Below, piece by piece: positions 34,942 to 45,872 of a stretch of 64,000 nt of DNA. The position numbers and the translations under genes were made by a program. Every line of letters begins with the position of its first letter. Position 1 is the stretch's first letter. The stretch comes from Methylovirgula ligni (GTDB taxonomy: Bacteria; Pseudomonadota; Alphaproteobacteria; Rhizobiales; Beijerinckiaceae): assembly GCF_004135935.1 (NCBI RefSeq), contig NZ_CP025086.1:1178001-1242000 (forward strand), in the 5' to 3' direction. Under the pieces are notes generated by a model. That model was not told the DNA's origin. It did not search any database and saw only the letters and a list, made by a program, of their open reading frames with translations.

Positions 34942-36038
34942 TATGCGGCGCAGGCCAGAAAGCCCTGACGGATTTCGTCTTCCTTCAAATGCCGGCCGAT
35001 GAAGACGACGCGGCTTGTTCGCTTTTCGTCCGGCCGCCATTCGCGCTGCACGTCGCCATCGAGCATCATATGCACGCCCTGAAAGACGAAGCGCTTGGGT
35101 TCGTTCTTGAAGGCGAGGATGCCTTTGGAACGCAGGATCGAAGGCCCTTCCTTCTGGATGTAATCGTTGAGCCAGGGCAGGAATTTCTCGGGATCGACAT
35201 CGCCGTCGAGGGACAAGGCGACCGATTGCATCTCCTCGTCGTGATAATGCTTGAGGCCGTGCTTGTGCTCATGGCTCTCGTGGTTCGCGTGGTCATGATC
35301 GTGGGCGTGGTGCTCATGCTCATGATGTTCATGATCATGGTCGTGACCGTGATGATGATCGTGGCCGTGATGGTGATGGTCGTCCTCGTCCTCGGTTTCG
35401 AGGAAGGACGGCTCGATTTCGAGGATGCGGTCGAGATCGAAGGCGTTGCGGCCGAGCACGGCGTCGAGCGGCACGGCGCAGTTCACCGTCCGGTGCAGTT
35501 TGGCATAGGGGTTGATAGCGCGGATGCGCGCCTCCACCTCGGCCAGTTCGTCCTTGCTCACGGTATCGGATTTGTTGAGCAGGATGACATCGGCGAAGGC
35601 GATCTGGTTCTTGGCCTCCGGCGCGTCCTTCAGACGCTCGGACAGCCATTTGGCGTCGGCGACGGTGACGACGGCATCGAGACGCGCTGCCTCCTGCACA
35701 TCGGCATCGACGAAGAAGGTCTGTGCCACGGGGGCGGGATCGGCGAGGCCGGTCGTCTCGACGATGATGGCGTCGAACTTGCCCTTGCGCTTCATCAGCC
35801 CCTCGATGATGCGGATCAGATCGCCGCGCACCGTGCAGCAGATGCAGCCATTGTTCATCTCGAAGATTTCCTCGTCGGCGCCGACGACGAGGTCGTTGTC
35901 GATGCCGATCTCCCCGAATTCATTGACGATGACGGCGAATTTCTTGCCGTGCGGCTCGCTCAGGATGCGGTTGAGCAGCGTCGTCTTGCCGGCGCCGAGA
36001 TAGCCGGTGAGCACGGTGACGGGAATTTTTTCGGCCAT
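34941..36038 (-). CDS. COG0523/CobW-family GTPase with His-rich metal-binding loop
   Basis: 365 aa. Walker [16 protein letters not shown], the family metal motif [12 protein letters not shown] (CxCC), [10 protein letters not shown] and the G4 motif NKSD are present. A loop at about residues 219-262 is packed with His/Asp/Glu/Gly ([19 protein letters not shown]...). The C-terminal CobW_C domain follows. Located between the znu genes and a WD40 protein, it is probably a zinc metallochaperone used under zinc limitation. The nickel/cobalamin role of true CobW is less likely in this context. Confidence 0.93.
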
Positions 36039-40313: not shown

Positions 40314-41611
40314 ATGGCGCGACGTAACTTGGGCTGGCATGCCGGGCAGCGTCGATTGGTGCCGGGGGCGTGTAGCTTGCGTTCGGAGCCGTGGTTCGAG
40401 CAGACGCGCGAGCGCGGCCTTGCCCCCGCCAGTACGCAGCGCAAGCTGGCGATATTGCGAGCGCCAGGCGCGGCCCCAAAATCCGATCAGCCATCATCCC
40501 TTCCGTCCGCCATCTCGCCTGCGCGCGGCGCCCGGCGTTGGCCGGGCGAGATCGGCTTTCTCGTCCACTATGACGTCCCGCCCGCATGTTTGGCAATCGC
40601 GACGGAGAAAGCGCGCGAGCTCGGGGTCACGGCAGACAGGGTTCTGATTGCCAAAGGTCTCGTTTCCGAAACGCATTTCTATCGCTGCCTCGCGCGCCAC
40701 CTTCGCGTCGGCTTCGTCGAGGGCGATATCGCCTTGGCTGCCAACGTCAATTATCGGGCGGCGATTCGGGCGGGTGTCACGCCGCTGGCGCGGGGGCACG
40801 GGGCAGACCTTCTCGCCGCGCCGCGCGGCCGGGCGATTATTGCGCTGATCGCGGCGGCGCGGCAGACCAATCGGGTCAAGAATCTTGCGATCACCACGCC
40901 GACGCATCTTTCGAATCTCGCCCGCGCGGCGGCCCGCGTCGAGATCGCGAATGCCGCCAGCCTTACGCTTCAAACGTTGGACGCCAGCCTCTGTGCCCGG
41001 GATGGCATGACCAAGCCGCAGCTTCTTGCCCTGACCGCGGCGGCCTGTCTCGCCGCTTTCTTCGCGCCGCTTGCACCGGTCGAGACGGCGACGATCTGCA
41101 CGGCGCTGGCGAGCTTCGTATTTCTCGCGATCCTCTGGTTGCGCCTGTCGATCTGTGCCGCCAGCCTTGCGGCGGCAGCGCCTCAAGCCTCACCTTTGGC
41201 GGATGCCGATCTGCCGCTTTATTCGCTCGTCGTCGCGCTCCATCGCGAAGCGCGGATCGTGCCGCAATTGCTCGCGGCGATCGAGGCGCTGGCTTATCCG
41301 CGCACCAAGCTCGACGTGAAGTTCGTCCTTGAAGATGGCGACGACGCAACCCTTGCGGCGTTGCGCCGCGCTCCGCCTTACAGCGAGATCATCATCGTGC
41401 CGGCGGGGCTTCCGCGCACCAAGCCGCGCGCGCTCAACGCCGCTCTGCCTCTCGTTCGCGGCGAACTGGTCGCGGTCTACGATGCCGAAGATATTCCCGA
41501 TCCGCAGCAACTTCGCCGCGCGGCGGCGCGCTTTGCCGTGGCGCCGTCCCGGCTCGCCTGCCTTCAGGCGCGGCTGGCGATCGACAATACCGGCGATGGC
41601 TGGCTGGCGCA
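40314..41611 (+). pseudogene. Family 2 glycosyltransferase, 5' part (split by transposon)
   Basis: The first 430 codons plus the target site of a gene whose remainder is at 45108-45872. Residues about 95-150 resemble the GspE_N/MshEN-type module (ELGVTADRVLIAKGLVSETHFYRCLA). Then two hydrophobic helices (about 225-280) and the start of a GT2 catalytic domain follow, with YSLVVALHREARIVPQLL, LEDGDDAT and VYDAEDIPDP. Translation runs into the transposon and stops at 41661-41663. The truncated product lacks the rest of the catalytic domain and the acceptor-side motifs. Confidence 0.88.
41604..41611. repeat. Target-site duplication, left copy
   Basis: CTGGCGCA, identical to 45108-45115. An 8-bp duplication is the usual size for IS1595-family insertion. 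Confidence 0.9.
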
Positions 41612-41637
41612 CGGTCTTATGGCGCAAACGCCGGAAG
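41612..41637 (+). repeat. Left terminal inverted repeat
   Basis: Begins CGGTCTTATGGCGCAAACGC and continues to GGAAG. It is 26/26 identical to the reverse complement of 45082-45107; the match ends right after it. Confidence 0.95.
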
Positions 41638-41742
41638 GGCGTTCGCATGTCACGCTGGCATAGCGGGAGAGGAACGATGAGTTAGGAGCCCGCCGTGCGG
41701 CGGCACGCGGCATGGGCCGCGATTCTCTTGACGCTTCTTCTT

Positions 41743-42579
41743 TTAGTTAGCGTCGGTAAAAGTTTGTACCAGAATCGCGTCGCCCAGATGACCGTTGATA
41801 GGCTTTGCGCCCTTACCTTGGATCAAAATGTAGGTGGGTTCAGTGAAGAACGTGGGCGTATCTTTGACGCCTATTTCTTGATACCTAATACAGACGACGA
41901 TGAAGCCTCTGAACAGGTCGGATTTGGTGAGTTCGGATGCATTAATTCCGTCGATAAGATCCGCATCTACACCTTGTTCCAATTTACTCCCTGGGAAGAC
42001 AGCACTTGTGAAGCCACTATCATGGCTCGCCCTGCACTTTTTACTATCAACCAATTTCTTGTCAGCCTCAGTGCTATTCATAGGGAAGATGTAAGCATCC
42101 CTAAAAATAACCATAGCCGGACTAGTCCCGCTGTTTTTTATGGACAATGTCAATGGAAGATCTGCGGCTTTCGCAGTAATCGAGAATTTCCCGGACGGCT
42201 CAGCGTCAACGGAAACCCAAGGACGGCGCTCGATCTTCATTTCGTTAAGTTGGCCTTGGGCCGAACCGGCCAAGTTGTGCAGATTGCTGACAGCTTCGGT
42301 CAGTTGAGATGTATCAGCGGCGTTTCGGTAAGTCAGATAGGATATTGCCAGCGACCCGATACCGACCAGCAACGTAAGCCACTCATTGACAGTCAGGCGG
42401 CCAAGAAAGCGGAGGGTTTCGCGGCGCTGCTTGCCAGCATTGCCATTGGGAGCGTTAGCGGCGCTTTTTGCATCGGATGTTTTGGGGGCGCTGCCTTCGG
42501 GTATAGCGCCTCCGTCCGTTTCAATTTTTTGATCTATGCTCTCTCGATTGGCGCTATTGCTTTCTGGCTTCTCAGTCAT
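41743..42579 (-). CDS. Transposon passenger: membrane-anchored protein of unknown function
   Basis: 278 aa. A polar N-terminus (residues 1-60, Asn/Ser/Ala-rich) is followed by one hydrophobic helix (WLTLLVGIGSLAISYLTY, about residues 67-84). A short coiled-coil-like stretch (DTSQLTEAVSNLHNLAGSAQGQLNEM) and a C-terminal beta-rich domain (WVSVDAEPSG ... LTLSIKNSGTSPAMVI) come next. This layout occurs in many uncharacterised single-span proteins with an immunoglobulin-like outer domain. AT-rich codons mark it as foreign. No catalytic motif seen. Confidence 0.7.
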   Translation of the reverse strand: MTEKPESNSANRESIDQKIETDGGAIPEGSAPKTSDAKSAANAPNGNAGKQRRETLRFLGRLTVNEWLTLLVGIGSLAISYLTYRNAADTSQLTEAVSNLHNLAGSAQGQLNEMKIERRPWVSVDAEPSGKFSITAKAADLPLTLSIKNSGTSPAMVIFRDAYIFPMNSTEADKKLVDSKKCRASHDSGFTSAVFPGSKLEQGVDADLIDGINASELTKSDLFRGFIVVCIRYQEIGVKDTPTFFTEPTYILIQGKGAKPINGHLGDAILVQTFTDAN

Positions 42580-42599
42580 TTAGCCGCGCCGCTCTTAAA

Positions 42600-42842
42600 T
42601 TAAATATCCTCCAATCTTACGCCCTGTAGCTCTAGCGCAGCAAGGCAAGCCAGAAAGAAAGCCGCCGGAACGGTTGCACGTGCAAGCTTGTTCGCGATGC
42701 TTGCTTTCGTCTCGCTGAATCCCTGCTTCTTTAGCCTTTCGGCTAGCTCCTCATAGGTTACGTCCGCTCGTTTCAGCTCGGCTTTCAGGTGCCTAGCCGC
42801 CCTCTCAGCCCATTCCTGTTCCGTCTTGGCAAACGCCATCAT
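42600..42842 (-). CDS. DUF6471-type small protein, probable helix-turn-helix regulator
   Basis: 80 aa. VTYEELAERLKKQGFSETKASIANKLAR (about residues 28-55) has the rhythm of a helix-turn-helix, followed by FFLACLAALELQGVRLEDI. This matches the DUF6471 pattern. It is divergent from the transposase across a 99-bp region with two palindromes, so it may repress itself and the transposase. That is inference; no experimental function is known to me. Confidence 0.7.
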   Translation of the reverse strand: MMAFAKTEQEWAERAARHLKAELKRADVTYEELAERLKKQGFSETKASIANKLARATVPAAFFLACLAALELQGVRLEDI

Positions 42843-42869
42843 GGAAATATTCCCAAATGCGATCTTTCG

Positions 42870-42885
42870 TTATCATATACGATAA
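42870..42885. promoter_or_regulatory. Palindromic operator candidate
   Basis: TTATCATATACGATAA is an imperfect palindrome (TTATC/GATAA arms) midway between the DUF6471 gene and the transposase. A second perfect palindrome, GATACCGTATC, sits at 42901-42911 inside the transposase promoter spacer. Confidence 0.5.
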
Positions 42886-42892
42886 TTTCCTA

Positions 42893-42920
42893 TTGACAAT
42901 GATACCGTATCCGATATTGT
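42893..42920 (+). promoter_or_regulatory. Sigma-70-like promoter of the transposase
   Basis: TTGACA (42893-42898), 16-base spacer, TATTGT (42915-42920), 21 bp before the transposase ATG. The GATACCGTATC palindrome overlaps the spacer, so a bound repressor would block it. Confidence 0.6.
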
Positions 42921-42941
42921 GTTCTCAGAAACGAGAACGCA

Positions 42942-43928
42942 ATGAGCCAGCACTTCCTCCTCTCGAAAGCCGCAAAGACCCTGAGCCTCGCTCAGGTGCT
43001 TCGCCTTTCGGATGCGGAAGCCGAGGCGATGTTCTCGCAAGTCCGTTGGCCGGCGACGAATGGCAAGCCGGTCTGCTCGCATTGCGGGGGCTTAGAGCCT
43101 TACGATTGCCGCCGTCCGAACGGTGCGCCACGCTTCGAGTGCCGCGCGTGCGGCAAGGATTTCAGCATCACCAGCGGGACGCTGTTCGCCTCTCACAAGC
43201 TTCCGCTGCGCACCTATCTCGGGGCTATCGCGATCTTCTGCAATGAAGTGAAAGGCAAGTCTGCGCTCGCCCTGTCCCGCGATCTTGGCCTTTCCTACAA
43301 AACCGCCTTTGTCCTGCTGCACAAGCTTCGCGAAGCAATGGCTTCGGAAATGAAAGGCCGCGTCGTCGGCGGCGAAGGCAAGGTTGCGGAGATCGACGGC
43401 GGCTATTTCGGCGGCTACGTAAAACCTGCCAATCTCAGAGAGAACCGCAAAGATCGGCGCTTCACTAATAACCAATCCGGCAAGCGCAAGGTTGTCGTGA
43501 TCGTCCGCGAGCGCGGCGGCAACTCAGTCCCGGCGGTTTTCCGGTCCGAAGGCCAAGCCCTGAATTTCATTCGCGCGCGTGTCGCGAAAGGCACCGTCAT
43601 CAACGCCGACGAAGGCAATGGCTGGAATGACCTTCACGGCCAATACGAAATGAAGCGCATCAATCATCAAGAGGCGTACAGCCTCAATGGCGCTTGCACG
43701 AATTGGGCGGAGGAATATTTCAGCCGTCTCCGCCGTGCCGAGATCGGCCATCACCACAATATCGCTGGCGTCTATCTCCTGCGCTACGCGCAAGAGGCGT
43801 CATGGCGCGAGGATCATCGCCGCATGGCGAATGGCGATCAGGTGCAGCGGCTGGCGGGTCTGGCGCTGCGCAATAAGCCGAGCGTCGATTTCAGCGGATA
43901 TTGGCAACGGTCTATTAACCGTTTATAA
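42942..43928 (+). CDS. IS1595-family (ISXO2-like) transposase
   Basis: 328 aa. The N-terminal zinc ribbon has Cys45/Cys48 and Cys67/Cys70 (CSHCGG ... CRACGKDFSITSGTLF). A helix-turn-helix-like segment follows (residues 105-130). The DDE-type catalytic core shows Asp152 (EIDGGYFGGYV), Asp223 (INADEG) and the C-terminal N...E cluster (CTNWAEEYFSRLRR, residues 252-264). Full length and uninterrupted, so probably active. It moves the surrounding 3.5-kb element. Confidence 0.95.
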   Translation: MSQHFLLSKAAKTLSLAQVLRLSDAEAEAMFSQVRWPATNGKPVCSHCGGLEPYDCRRPNGAPRFECRACGKDFSITSGTLFASHKLPLRTYLGAIAIFCNEVKGKSALALSRDLGLSYKTAFVLLHKLREAMASEMKGRVVGGEGKVAEIDGGYFGGYVKPANLRENRKDRRFTNNQSGKRKVVVIVRERGGNSVPAVFRSEGQALNFIRARVAKGTVINADEGNGWNDLHGQYEMKRINHQEAYSLNGACTNWAEEYFSRLRRAEIGHHHNIAGVYLLRYAQEASWREDHRRMANGDQVQRLAGLALRNKPSVDFSGYWQRSINRL

Positions 43929-44067
43929 ACTACATTTAGTGGGTAGATGCCTTGACTTATACTAAAAATCCGGACAGAATCACGAGTCGGCCTTGATTCG
44001 GCGGTATCTGGTGTATGTAATAGGGTGTAAACCCTTTCAAAGCATTGTCCCTAGCGGGATAGCTTCC

Positions 44068-44367
44068 ATGAGCGCCGTGACCCACACACCTAAATTCGCA
44101 AAAATTGTTGTCAAGTTCGAGCGACGCGAAGACGGCGGTCTTCGTGCGTACAGTGATGACGTGCCTGGATTTGTTTTGTCCAATAAGAATCCAGAATTAG
44201 TCCTTGCGGACATCGTTCCGACGCTTGAATTCATGCTGTCAGCGATATGGGGTGAGTCAGTTGTAGCTAGTCGCCTTGGCAGGCTTGGCGAAGCTATTAA
44301 TCCCGAAGACAAACTTCCCTCGGTTCCTGCTGCTTGCGATAAAGAGTACGTAGCATACGTCAATTGA
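44068..44367 (+). CDS. Transposon passenger: HicB-like (putative antitoxin)
   Basis: 99 aa from the ATG at 44068. The segment IVVKFERREDGGLRAYSDDVPGFVLSNKNPELVLADIVPTLEFML resembles the HicB partial RNase H-like fold (substrate strand, VPGF loop, then a helix). It lacks an obvious DNA-binding C-terminus. It ends one base before the HicA-like gene, the coupling expected for a toxin-antitoxin pair. Assignment rests on weak fold-pattern resemblance. Confidence 0.5.
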   Translation: MSAVTHTPKFAKIVVKFERREDGGLRAYSDDVPGFVLSNKNPELVLADIVPTLEFMLSAIWGESVVASRLGRLGEAINPEDKLPSVPAACDKEYVAYVN

Positions 44368-44368
44368 C

Positions 44369-44614
44369 ATGATCGCAAATCGCCTCCTTTCGCGCTCCGA
44401 ATGGGAGGCAAAGCTACGAAGACATGGCGCGGAGCCATTAGAGGGGAAAGGTTCAAACAATACCGGAGAGTGGTGGCACGTGCCGAACGGCGGCTACCCT
44501 TTTAAGGTGCCCCTCGAAGATGATGAGGGGCGAGCCGAATTTTGGGCCATTCAACGAATCGCGGCCGACTTAGATAAGCCTCCGCCGCGCAATCCGTTTA
44601 GACCTTTCCACTAG
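44369..44614 (+). CDS. Transposon passenger: HicA-like small protein (putative toxin)
   Basis: 81 aa. WEAKLRRHGAEPLEGKGSNNTGEWWHVPNGGYPFKVPLEDDEG follows the HicA plan: helix, GKGS turn, beta strands, P.G...vP. The usual catalytic His after GKGS (GKGSH) is replaced by Asn, with a His three residues after WW instead. It could therefore be an inactive or divergent mRNA interferase. One base after the HicB-like gene; overlaps the convergent 44611-45048 gene by 4 bp. Confidence 0.45.
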   Translation: MIANRLLSRSEWEAKLRRHGAEPLEGKGSNNTGEWWHVPNGGYPFKVPLEDDEGRAEFWAIQRIAADLDKPPPRNPFRPFH

Positions 44615-45048
44615 CTCGCGAGCGACCAAAGCGCGCTCAGCCTGTCGCCTTCCTTCCTGACCAGGCCGCGCTCCCGCAGCAGATAATTCAGGTTCGCCCG
44701 CACGCGGTTTGTCATGCCGCGCTTGGCGTCGGGGCCGTGGCCTAGCTCCGCCACTACAGCGTCCGTCACTTCGCCCGTTGAGAGCGGCTTTCCGGCCTTC
44801 CTGAGCGCGTTCAGGATCAGCCGGTTCAATTCACCCGCGTTGAACAGCTTCACCCGCTTGTAGGGCTTCTTTGCCGGGATGGCGGAGCCGTCTAGATCGG
44901 GATTGAATAGCCGTATCGTATGATCGACGGCCTCGGCCATCTTGCGGAGATAGCGCAGGCGATCTTCGAGAGACGAGATTTCGCCCGCGATTGTGGCGCG
45001 GCGCTCTTTGAGAGCGGCAAGCGCGTATTGGTTTGTGTTCGGTTCCAT
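44611..45048 (-). CDS. Transposon passenger: coiled-coil plus winged-helix-like protein
   Basis: 145 aa. Residues 9-50 form a coiled coil (LKERRATIAGEISSLEDRLRYLRKM). Residues 72-143 resemble a winged helix (NRLILNALRKAGKPLSTGEVTDAVV ... RVRANLNYLLRERGLVRKEGDRLSALW). It probably binds DNA. It starts 34 bp inside the right terminal repeat, so it might act at the transposon end. No characterised family recognised. Confidence 0.65.
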   Translation of the reverse strand: MEPNTNQYALAALKERRATIAGEISSLEDRLRYLRKMAEAVDHTIRLFNPDLDGSAIPAKKPYKRVKLFNAGELNRLILNALRKAGKPLSTGEVTDAVVAELGHGPDAKRGMTNRVRANLNYLLRERGLVRKEGDRLSALWSLAS

Positions 45049-45081
45049 GTCCTAGAATCTAGGAATGGCATGGTCTAATGT

Positions 45082-45107
45082 CTTCCGGCGTTTGCGCCAT
45101 AAGACCG
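45082..45107 (-). repeat. Right terminal inverted repeat
   Basis: Reverse complement of 41612-41637, 26/26 identical. The element ends at ...AAGACCG, followed directly by CTGGCGCA. Confidence 0.95.
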
Positions 45108-45115
45108 CTGGCGCA
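45108..45115. repeat. Target-site duplication, right copy
   Basis: CTGGCGCA, identical to 41604-41611. Confidence 0.9.
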
Positions 45116-45872
45116 GCTTTTCGCCATCGAATATGCCGGCCTCTTCGATGTGTTGAACGTGGGGCTCTCGGCTTTGCGTCTGCCGCTTCCCCTGGGCGGT
45201 ACCTCGAATCATTTTCGATCCGAGGCGCTGCGCCGGATCGGCGGCTGGGATGCCTGGAATGTCACGGAGGACGCCGACATCGGCCTGCGGCTCGCCCGCT
45301 TCGGCTATGACATCGAGACATTGGACTCGACGACCTGCGAAGAGGCGCCTTTCACACTCGCCGCCTTTTTCAATCAGCGGCGGCGCTGGTGCAAAGGCTG
45401 GTACCAGACGCTGATCGTCTTGTTGCGGAACCCGCGCCGGCTGCTGCGGGAATTGGGGCCTGTGCGTCATGCCGCGATCGCGCTGACGCTCGGCGCGAAC
45501 ATTCTGGGCTCGCTCGCCGCGCCGCTTTGCGGCCTCTGCCTCGCTCTCGACGTCGCTCTCGGCGCCGCGGCCCTGCCTGCCAATGGCTGGCAGGATGGGC
45601 TGGCGGGGGTCTGTACGATGGTGATCGTGGCTGGCGTTCCGGCGCTGCTCTGGCCGACGCTTCTGGGGATGCAGCGCCGCCGTCTCCTGCGGCTGTGGCC
45701 GGTCCTGGCGCTTTTGCCGTTCTACTGGTTGCTCATTTGCGCCGCCGCCTGGGCAGCCGTCTTCGATCTCGTCCGGCGGCCCTTCCATTGGCACAAAACC
45801 GAGCACGGGCTGGCGCACCGGCGCAAAAGCGACGGCGCGCAGGGCGTGTCGTCTAGAAGGCTTGTCGTCTAG
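45108..45872 (+). pseudogene. Family 2 glycosyltransferase, 3' part (split by transposon)
   Basis: Begins in frame with CTG GCG CAG CTT TTC. It holds the missing half of the GT2 domain: GGTSNHFRSEALRRIGGWDAWNVTEDADIGLRLARFG (catalytic ED), then QRRRWCKGWYQT, the Q(Q/R)xxRW acceptor motif of processive polysaccharide synthases. Three C-terminal membrane helices follow (about 45470-45750). Joined to the 5' part the protein would be 684 aa. An ATG at 45078 inside the transposon could produce an N-truncated fragment. The intact gene probably made a surface or exported polysaccharide. Confidence 0.88.

Follow-up and report, generated by a model that had tools for sequence, protein, structure and literature searches.

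Why an IS1595-family transposon should lie inside a glycosyltransferase gene, at a site that is also occupied in unrelated hosts, is the question raised by a 64,000-nt stretch of the Methylovirgula ligni genome (referred to here as the window). The best reading, which we hold to be probable on the strength of comparisons among related elements, is that this is an autonomous IS1595 transposon in which a short winged-helix (WH) protein would act as a modular target selector. The features on which this reading depends are as follows.

40314..41611, plus strand: upstream piece of the interrupted family 2 glycosyltransferase gene (Pfam Glyco_tranf_2_3, 1.7e-9)
41604..41611, no strand: left copy of the target-site duplication, CTGGCGCA (identical 8-mer at both flanks)
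41612..41637, plus strand: left terminal inverted repeat, 26 bp (26 nt, 100% complementary to the right end)
42942..43928, plus strand: IS1595-family transposase, zinc ribbon and DDE domain (Pfam, NCBIfam, alignment)
44611..45048, minus strand: WH gene, encoding a coiled-coil and winged-helix protein, the proposed target selector (site association, clustering, model)
45082..45107, minus strand: right terminal inverted repeat, 26 bp (26 nt, 100% complementary to the left end)
45108..45115, no strand: right copy of the target-site duplication, CTGGCGCA (matches the left 8-mer exactly)
45116..45872, plus strand: downstream piece of the interrupted glycosyltransferase gene (Pfam Glyco_trans_2_3, 1.4e-15)

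An intact IS1595 element in a glycosyltransferase gene

The window contains an intact IS1595-family transposon of 3,496 bp (41612-45107). A preliminary description of this DNA had reported perfect 26-bp terminal inverted repeats, an 8-bp target duplication, and five genes besides the transposase inside the ends, all of which were found as described, in an element that is intact, longer than a simple insertion sequence, and sharply bounded. The ends at 41612 and 45107 were the sole pair between positions 36000 and 50000 in a scan for inverted ends (at least 15/22) with an exact 8-bp duplication. The full-length IS1595 transposase that had been proposed is supported by matches to Pfam DDE_Tnp_IS1595 (E = 2.7e-32, 112.3 bits against a curated cutoff of 27), to Pfam Zn_ribbon_IS1595 for the N-terminal zinc ribbon (E = 7.2e-12, 45.5 bits against 25.4), and to NCBIfam IS1595 (E = 1.4e-38, 132.9 bits against 75), and by residues C45, C48, C67, C70, D152, D223, and E257, which are unchanged in 50 of 50 aligned transposases. 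The window therefore has the DDE domain, zinc ribbon, 8-bp duplication, and terminal inverted repeats of the IS1595 family, and this anatomy shows that the transposase cuts and joins the ends, creating the duplication. The genome (3,298,588 bases, one contig) carries a single full copy of the element and, as a second trace, a decayed 130-bp remnant of a WH gene (85% identical; L002 1500-1639) that spans two frames.

Once joined, the flanks of the window element form one continuous glycosyltransferase frame. This interruption, and the relation between the WH gene and the insertion site set out below, had been missed by the preliminary description, which stood as to the intact IS1595 element and fell as to the role and identity of several of its genes.

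Insertion sites and the winged-helix protein

A transposase query of genome contigs found 89 relatives. The 80 best of these were searched for inverted ends flanked by an exact 8-bp duplication, and 57 of the loci had candidates. Loci L010, L044, and L054, with ends unlike the others, and L070 and L083, with a broken transposase, were dropped before counting; the delimited set comprises 53 elements, from 52 of the 80 loci and the window. All 53 have similar ends and exact 8-bp duplications, the prevailing end sequence being CGGTATTATGGCGCAAACGCCA and that of the window CGGTCTTATGGCGCAAACGCCG, and lengths across the relatives run from 1,576 to 6,320 bp. No transposase match was found in phages at an E value of 1e-20. 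The flanks of two elements (L048, 4828-7927; L077, 4779-8431) also include an end that belongs to a further such element, a pattern suggestive of stacking at one place.

Five insertion sites, each defined by the same codon and phase, recur among the 53 elements: glycosyltransferase site 1 (n = 6), glycosyltransferase site 2 (n = 6, including the window), dprA (n = 9), comM (n = 2), and an unnamed gene (n = 2). Sites were placed by joining the interrupted frames; for three dprA cases, one site 1 case, and one site 2 case, in which the joined reading fell in a shadow frame, the flanks decided the placement. Elements in either orientation are found at four of the five sites. The dprA target was identified by Pfam PF02481 and PF21102 and the comM target by PF01078 and PF13335. 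A further element, L018, interrupts comEC (PF03772 on both flanks), and the ComEC frame is broken at the same residue in L019, a one-sided case. The new-genome test described below added another site in the glycosyltransferase gene, site 3 (five loci, whose WHs form a separate cluster). Among the named genes, the glycosyltransferase gene has three sites, comM two, dprA one, and comEC one. The main comM site is LFLDELPE|F, a stretch that we take to be the Walker B motif. The unnamed gene, shared by L045 and L048, contains the stretch IFAIEACGSL and has no Pfam match. An element in G005, a genome of the same genus as the window host, has a WH identical to that of L043 and a comM flank 99 to 100% identical to it.

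The genes of the elements differ in how well they predict the site. Association was measured in the 25 of 53 elements that share one of the five sites with another element (68 same-site and 232 other-site pairs), with the other 28 set aside. WH separated the two kinds of pairs completely, with an area under the curve (AUC) of 1.000 and the nearest neighbor right in 25/25; same-site WHs were at least 39.7% identical and other-site WHs at most 34.3%, and the AUC stayed at 1.0 for pairs whose transposases are less than 75% identical. Cut into five clusters, the proteins reached a purity by site of 25/25 for WH, 15/25 for the transposase, 14/25 for the DUF6471 protein, and 10/16 for a membrane protein family (MEM). 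The AUC for DUF6471 was 0.641 (nearest neighbor right in 10/25).

It is improbable that the transposase reads the target itself and that WH merely regulates or helps. Such a role would fit the association of the transposase with the site (AUC 0.750, nearest neighbor right in 15/25, 0 of 2,000 shuffles as high), but the transposase adds little once WH is given (residual AUC 0.549, versus 0.971 for WH given the transposase), and elements with transposases 85 to 89% identical and WHs 16 to 27% identical are found in different target genes. We attach similarly little probability to hitchhiking, in which the insertions are old, their interiors have been replaced by recombination between elements, and WH has stayed linked to the flank without choosing it. 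WH does typically adjoin the right end, as this account would have it, yet MEM, which adjoins the left end, has no association with the site (16 elements; AUC 0.537, nearest neighbor right in 6/16, 319 of 1,000 shuffles as high). WH also keeps its site match where it lies away from the right end (L030, L035, and L065) or on the opposite strand (L018), and hitchhiking accounts neither for both orientations at four of the five sites nor for a common codon in distant hosts. Transposase-led site choice and hitchhiking of WH were each rejected, as the whole story, on the site-association comparison.

Because of this match between site and WH, we favor a targeting role for the WH protein. WH would bind to one stretch within a conserved host gene and recruit the transposase to it, with insertion at a fixed codon as the result. 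Distinct WH types would read distinct genes, namely, the glycosyltransferase gene (three sites), comM (two sites), dprA, and comEC, and WH would be exchangeable between otherwise similar elements, giving a modular family.

The relation extends beyond the elements in which it was found. When 111 WHs were clustered by sequence alone, 46 of the 46 with a labeled target fell into single-target clusters, whereas shuffled labels gave at most 25. The labeled shares were 12/22 in the site 1 cluster, 10/15 for dprA, 9/12 for site 2, 5/7 for site 3, and 7/13 and 1/2 in the two clusters spanned by comM, which also has two sites. This match is not predicted if the element is an ordinary cargo transposon with WH as a plain passenger regulator and with hot spots that stem from DNA structure or from selection, and neither is a single codon across hosts of different orders. 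Several insertions in palindromes or at tRNA ends (L032 and L079, for example, adjoin the 3' end of tRNA-Arg) are what such a transposon might show, and we regard it as a very improbable explanation. Palindromic or tandem short repeats were also seen near the flanks of L007, L021, L037, L054, and L077, which belong to a single WH cluster, and L143, a one-sided element end, adjoins an HSP90 gene (htpG).

Queries with WHs of four classes found matches in 13/397, 22/397, 2/385, and 15/385 genomes. Among the class-labeled WHs with a readable flank in new genomes, 17/27 were located in the gene predicted for their class (site 1, 6/11; site 2, 3/4; dprA, 1/1; comM, 7/11, two of them at the second comM site), and 0/27 in that of a different class. 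This count excludes the own genome (L124, L148, and L162), a repeat (L155), and labeled loci without a recognized end (L112, L118, L120, L130, L144, L150, L152, L158, and L160); removal of three repeats of training elements (L111, L133, and L164) leaves 14/24.

The reverse search, starting from the gene, found the glycosyltransferase gene in 109 of 119 family genomes. Twelve insertions were seen in 10 genomes, and the WH belonged to the matching cluster in 12/12 (one WH being a 37-amino-acid piece and one lying at the edge of its stretch). The sample consisted of 16 stretches plus the window; 7 of the 12 insertions lay in genomes already known through their WH or transposase, with the site known, and the five WHs not assigned before were those of L200, L203, L204 (site 1), L205, and L207 (site 1). 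Short frames at contig edges (e.g., G491, G059, and G047) were set aside. Two genomes carry two elements in one glycosyltransferase gene, at sites 1 and 2 in G006 (L207) and at sites 1 and 3 in G499 (L204). Glycosyltransferase sites 1, 2, and 3 have different WH clusters, which indicates that WH follows the site and not the gene. A WH that acts on the interrupted gene, for instance, by repressing or replacing its expression, and that is kept for this reason while targeting is achieved otherwise, could explain why a DNA-binding protein matches the gene; in view of the different clusters within one gene, we consider it extremely improbable.

The host DNA next to site 1 gives a further indication of what may be read by WH. 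At wobble bases 8 to 25 past the start of the duplication, the likeness among six inserted hosts was 0.82, compared with a mean of 0.49 in 5,000 subsets of 23 uninserted genes (0/5,000 as high; L186, itself inserted, was excluded), although this signal comes from one of 20 windows tested and six inserted sequences, and the inserted hosts belong to several families and the controls to one. No such excess likeness was found in the other site 1 wobble windows.

Several observations weigh against target selection by WH. The wobble signal at site 2 is weaker (74 and 132 of 5,000). The flank or a recognized gene is missing for 65 of the 111 clustered WHs, which are unlabeled, and 10 of the 27 WHs in new genomes lay on no recognized target. 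Exceptions delimited on both sides lie elsewhere despite a WH of the dprA cluster (L011, L027, and L080), of site 1 (L016), or of site 2 (L029), and L022, L031, L041, L145, and L165 have a flank without the target. One comM WH cluster covers two different comM sites, and the comM case L157 falls in a neighboring cluster. Finally, the transposase and DUF6471 also show some association with the site.

Chassis genes and cargo

The remaining genes and sites within the element are listed here.

41743..42579, minus strand: membrane protein (MEM family), recurring in the left slot of relatives (reading frame; iterated profile search)
42600..42842, minus strand: DUF6471 gene, probable repressor of divergent promoters (Pfam, E = 1e-24)
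42870..42885, no strand: inverted repeat TTATCATATACGATAA, candidate operator (changed-arm versions in several of 10 intergenic stretches)
42893..42920, plus strand: promoter-like site TTGACA-16-TATTGT for the transposase (promoter-like site search)
42921..42938, no strand: inverted repeat GTTCTCAGAAACGAGAAC ahead of the transposase start, candidate operator
44068..44367, plus strand: cargo cassette gene 1, 99 amino acids, no profile match (reading frame; like pair in L215, outside the IS1595 ends sought there)
44369..44614, plus strand: cargo cassette gene 2, 81 amino acids, no profile match (relative in 1 of 98 other family genomes searched)

The preliminary description had treated all five genes other than the transposase as passengers, a view rejected because of the recurrence of three of them across the 53 elements. 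WH is present in 53/53 (by frame families, position, and translated search), DUF6471 in 47/53, and MEM, on the minus strand, in 27/53 (by an iterated profile built from the window membrane protein), so that the gene list of the window is mostly chassis-like and the right slot is variable. The 253 frames of the 53 elements fall into three large families (transposase; WH, in 49 elements; DUF6471), a family with three members, and singletons. The WH count includes a 61-amino-acid piece in L060, four genes first located by position (L007, L040, L063, and L068), and one on the opposite strand (L018). DUF6471 is absent from L029 and from five forms of about 1.6 kb that have the transposase and the WH gene within their ends. 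The idea of one mobile unit, checked in these relatives, holds in that cargo and ends occur together and is qualified by these short forms, in which the repeats enclose little else. WH, DUF6471, and MEM look like parts of the chassis.

The window WH protein has 145 amino acids, and its predicted structure (predicted local distance difference test [pLDDT] score, 94.1) consists of a helix at residues 3 to 48 followed by a winged helix. The top fold matches of this model are winged-helix DNA-binding proteins, all with E values above 0.001; a profile search by sequence against solved structures reached a best E value of only 0.026. Pfam gave no match to the window WH and weak matches in five listings across 44 WH members.

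The Pfam match upholds the DUF6471 label given previously. Three promoter-like sites were found in 42800-42960, versus 0.4 expected, and several elements contain two or three inverted repeats between DUF6471 and the transposase gene, in which one pattern with altered arms is arranged around TTGACA; no such repeats were found there in L021. These repeats suggest a repressor with its operators. Given that the two genes are divergently arranged and that the inverted repeats recur, DUF6471 may be a small DNA-binding repressor that acts in the stretch separating its gene from that of the transposase and damps both genes.

The right slot holds changing cargo, represented in the window by a two-gene cassette. 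These genes had been labeled HicB/HicA-like, and membership in HicAB toxin-antitoxin systems was rejected, as neither protein had a match, to HicA/HicB profiles or otherwise, in Pfam, NCBIfam, PADLOC, or PHROGs at E values up to 1. The single-sequence structure model of the 81-amino-acid protein is poor (pLDDT, 60.2). An adjacent gene pair resembling the cassette is present in G028 (L215, 1205-1755), where inspection of 3.2 kb by eye revealed no IS1595 gene, which marks the pair as an independent cassette. The neighbors of the L215 pair, again by eye, include a gene of phage-like appearance on the other side and a transposase gene.

A survey of 70 frames (67 slot frames and 3 from the MEM family or left slot) gave matches to 37 Pfam families, nearly all of those listed being single-member, such as an MmeI-type restriction-methylation protein, DNA methylases, KilA-N, an M78 peptidase, and SocA-like, PemK-like, ParA-like, and TPR proteins. 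The best 25 of 96 PADLOC matches included BstA (at least two), mads_2 (at least two), type IIG (at least one), and capP (at least one). Two 6.3-kb elements, L008 and L026, enclose between their ends an additional IS1595 transposase that is only distantly related (about 32% identical).

Relation to known systems and to natural transformation

The ISNha5 subgroup of the IS1595 family has ends of the form CGGNNTT and sizes of 3.45 to 7.9 kb. The window element, with the end CGGTCTT and 3,496 bp, would fit this description, but its relatives with a like chassis span 1,576 to 6,320 bp. It shares the zinc-ribbon IS1595 transposase and the 8-bp duplication, the comparison with ISNha5 being by description only. 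ISNha5 is named in the literature for its passenger transcription regulators, and the portion of that source available to us makes no mention of target selection by a regulator-like gene (PMC11891212).

A parallel in function may lie with Tn7-like elements, in which, according to the accessible part of the source, a separate protein (TnsD/TniQ or TnsF) picks a conserved gene, selectors are exchanged between elements, and the comM gene is chosen, at Walker B, by the TnsF proteins of Tn6022 and Tsy (PMC10293859). WH would resemble these selectors as a separate protein choosing a conserved gene, comM included. The window element differs in its one transposase, 8-bp duplication, and 145-amino-acid winged-helix protein, and Pfam and NCBIfam revealed no TnsA, TnsB, TnsC, or TniQ among its six proteins. 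No target selector of the IS1595 family was found in the literature searched, whose coverage leaves out most subscription journals.

Mobile elements are known to escape replacement by transforming DNA through a block on transformation, and elements that disrupt dprA, comM, or comEC would be expected to lower natural transformation. Mobile elements have been described that insert at conserved places in comM and comEC, with lowered transformation as the proposed gain; as far as the excerpts seen extend, these are prophages, integrase elements, and Tn7-like AbaR (PMC4774983, PMC11472951). In contrast to those, the elements described here belong to the IS1595 family, have several putative selectors, and include dprA among their targets. 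We lean, by a modest degree, toward a broader proposal in which one transposase and an exchangeable small WH form a two-part protein-guided insertion system, whose selectors would recognize a minimum of seven fixed sites, spread over four named genes, three of them for transformation (dprA, comM, and comEC), and which would amount to a family-wide switch-off of host transformation.

Dedicated selectors are known from Tn7-like elements, and the short WH protein seems to be the equivalent for an insertion sequence family with one transposase. If so, no smaller layout for protein-guided insertion would be known, and this one would be open to dissection and swapping; the recurrence of dprA, comM, and comEC as targets would make the switch-off of transformation by mobile elements directly testable with many natural selectors.

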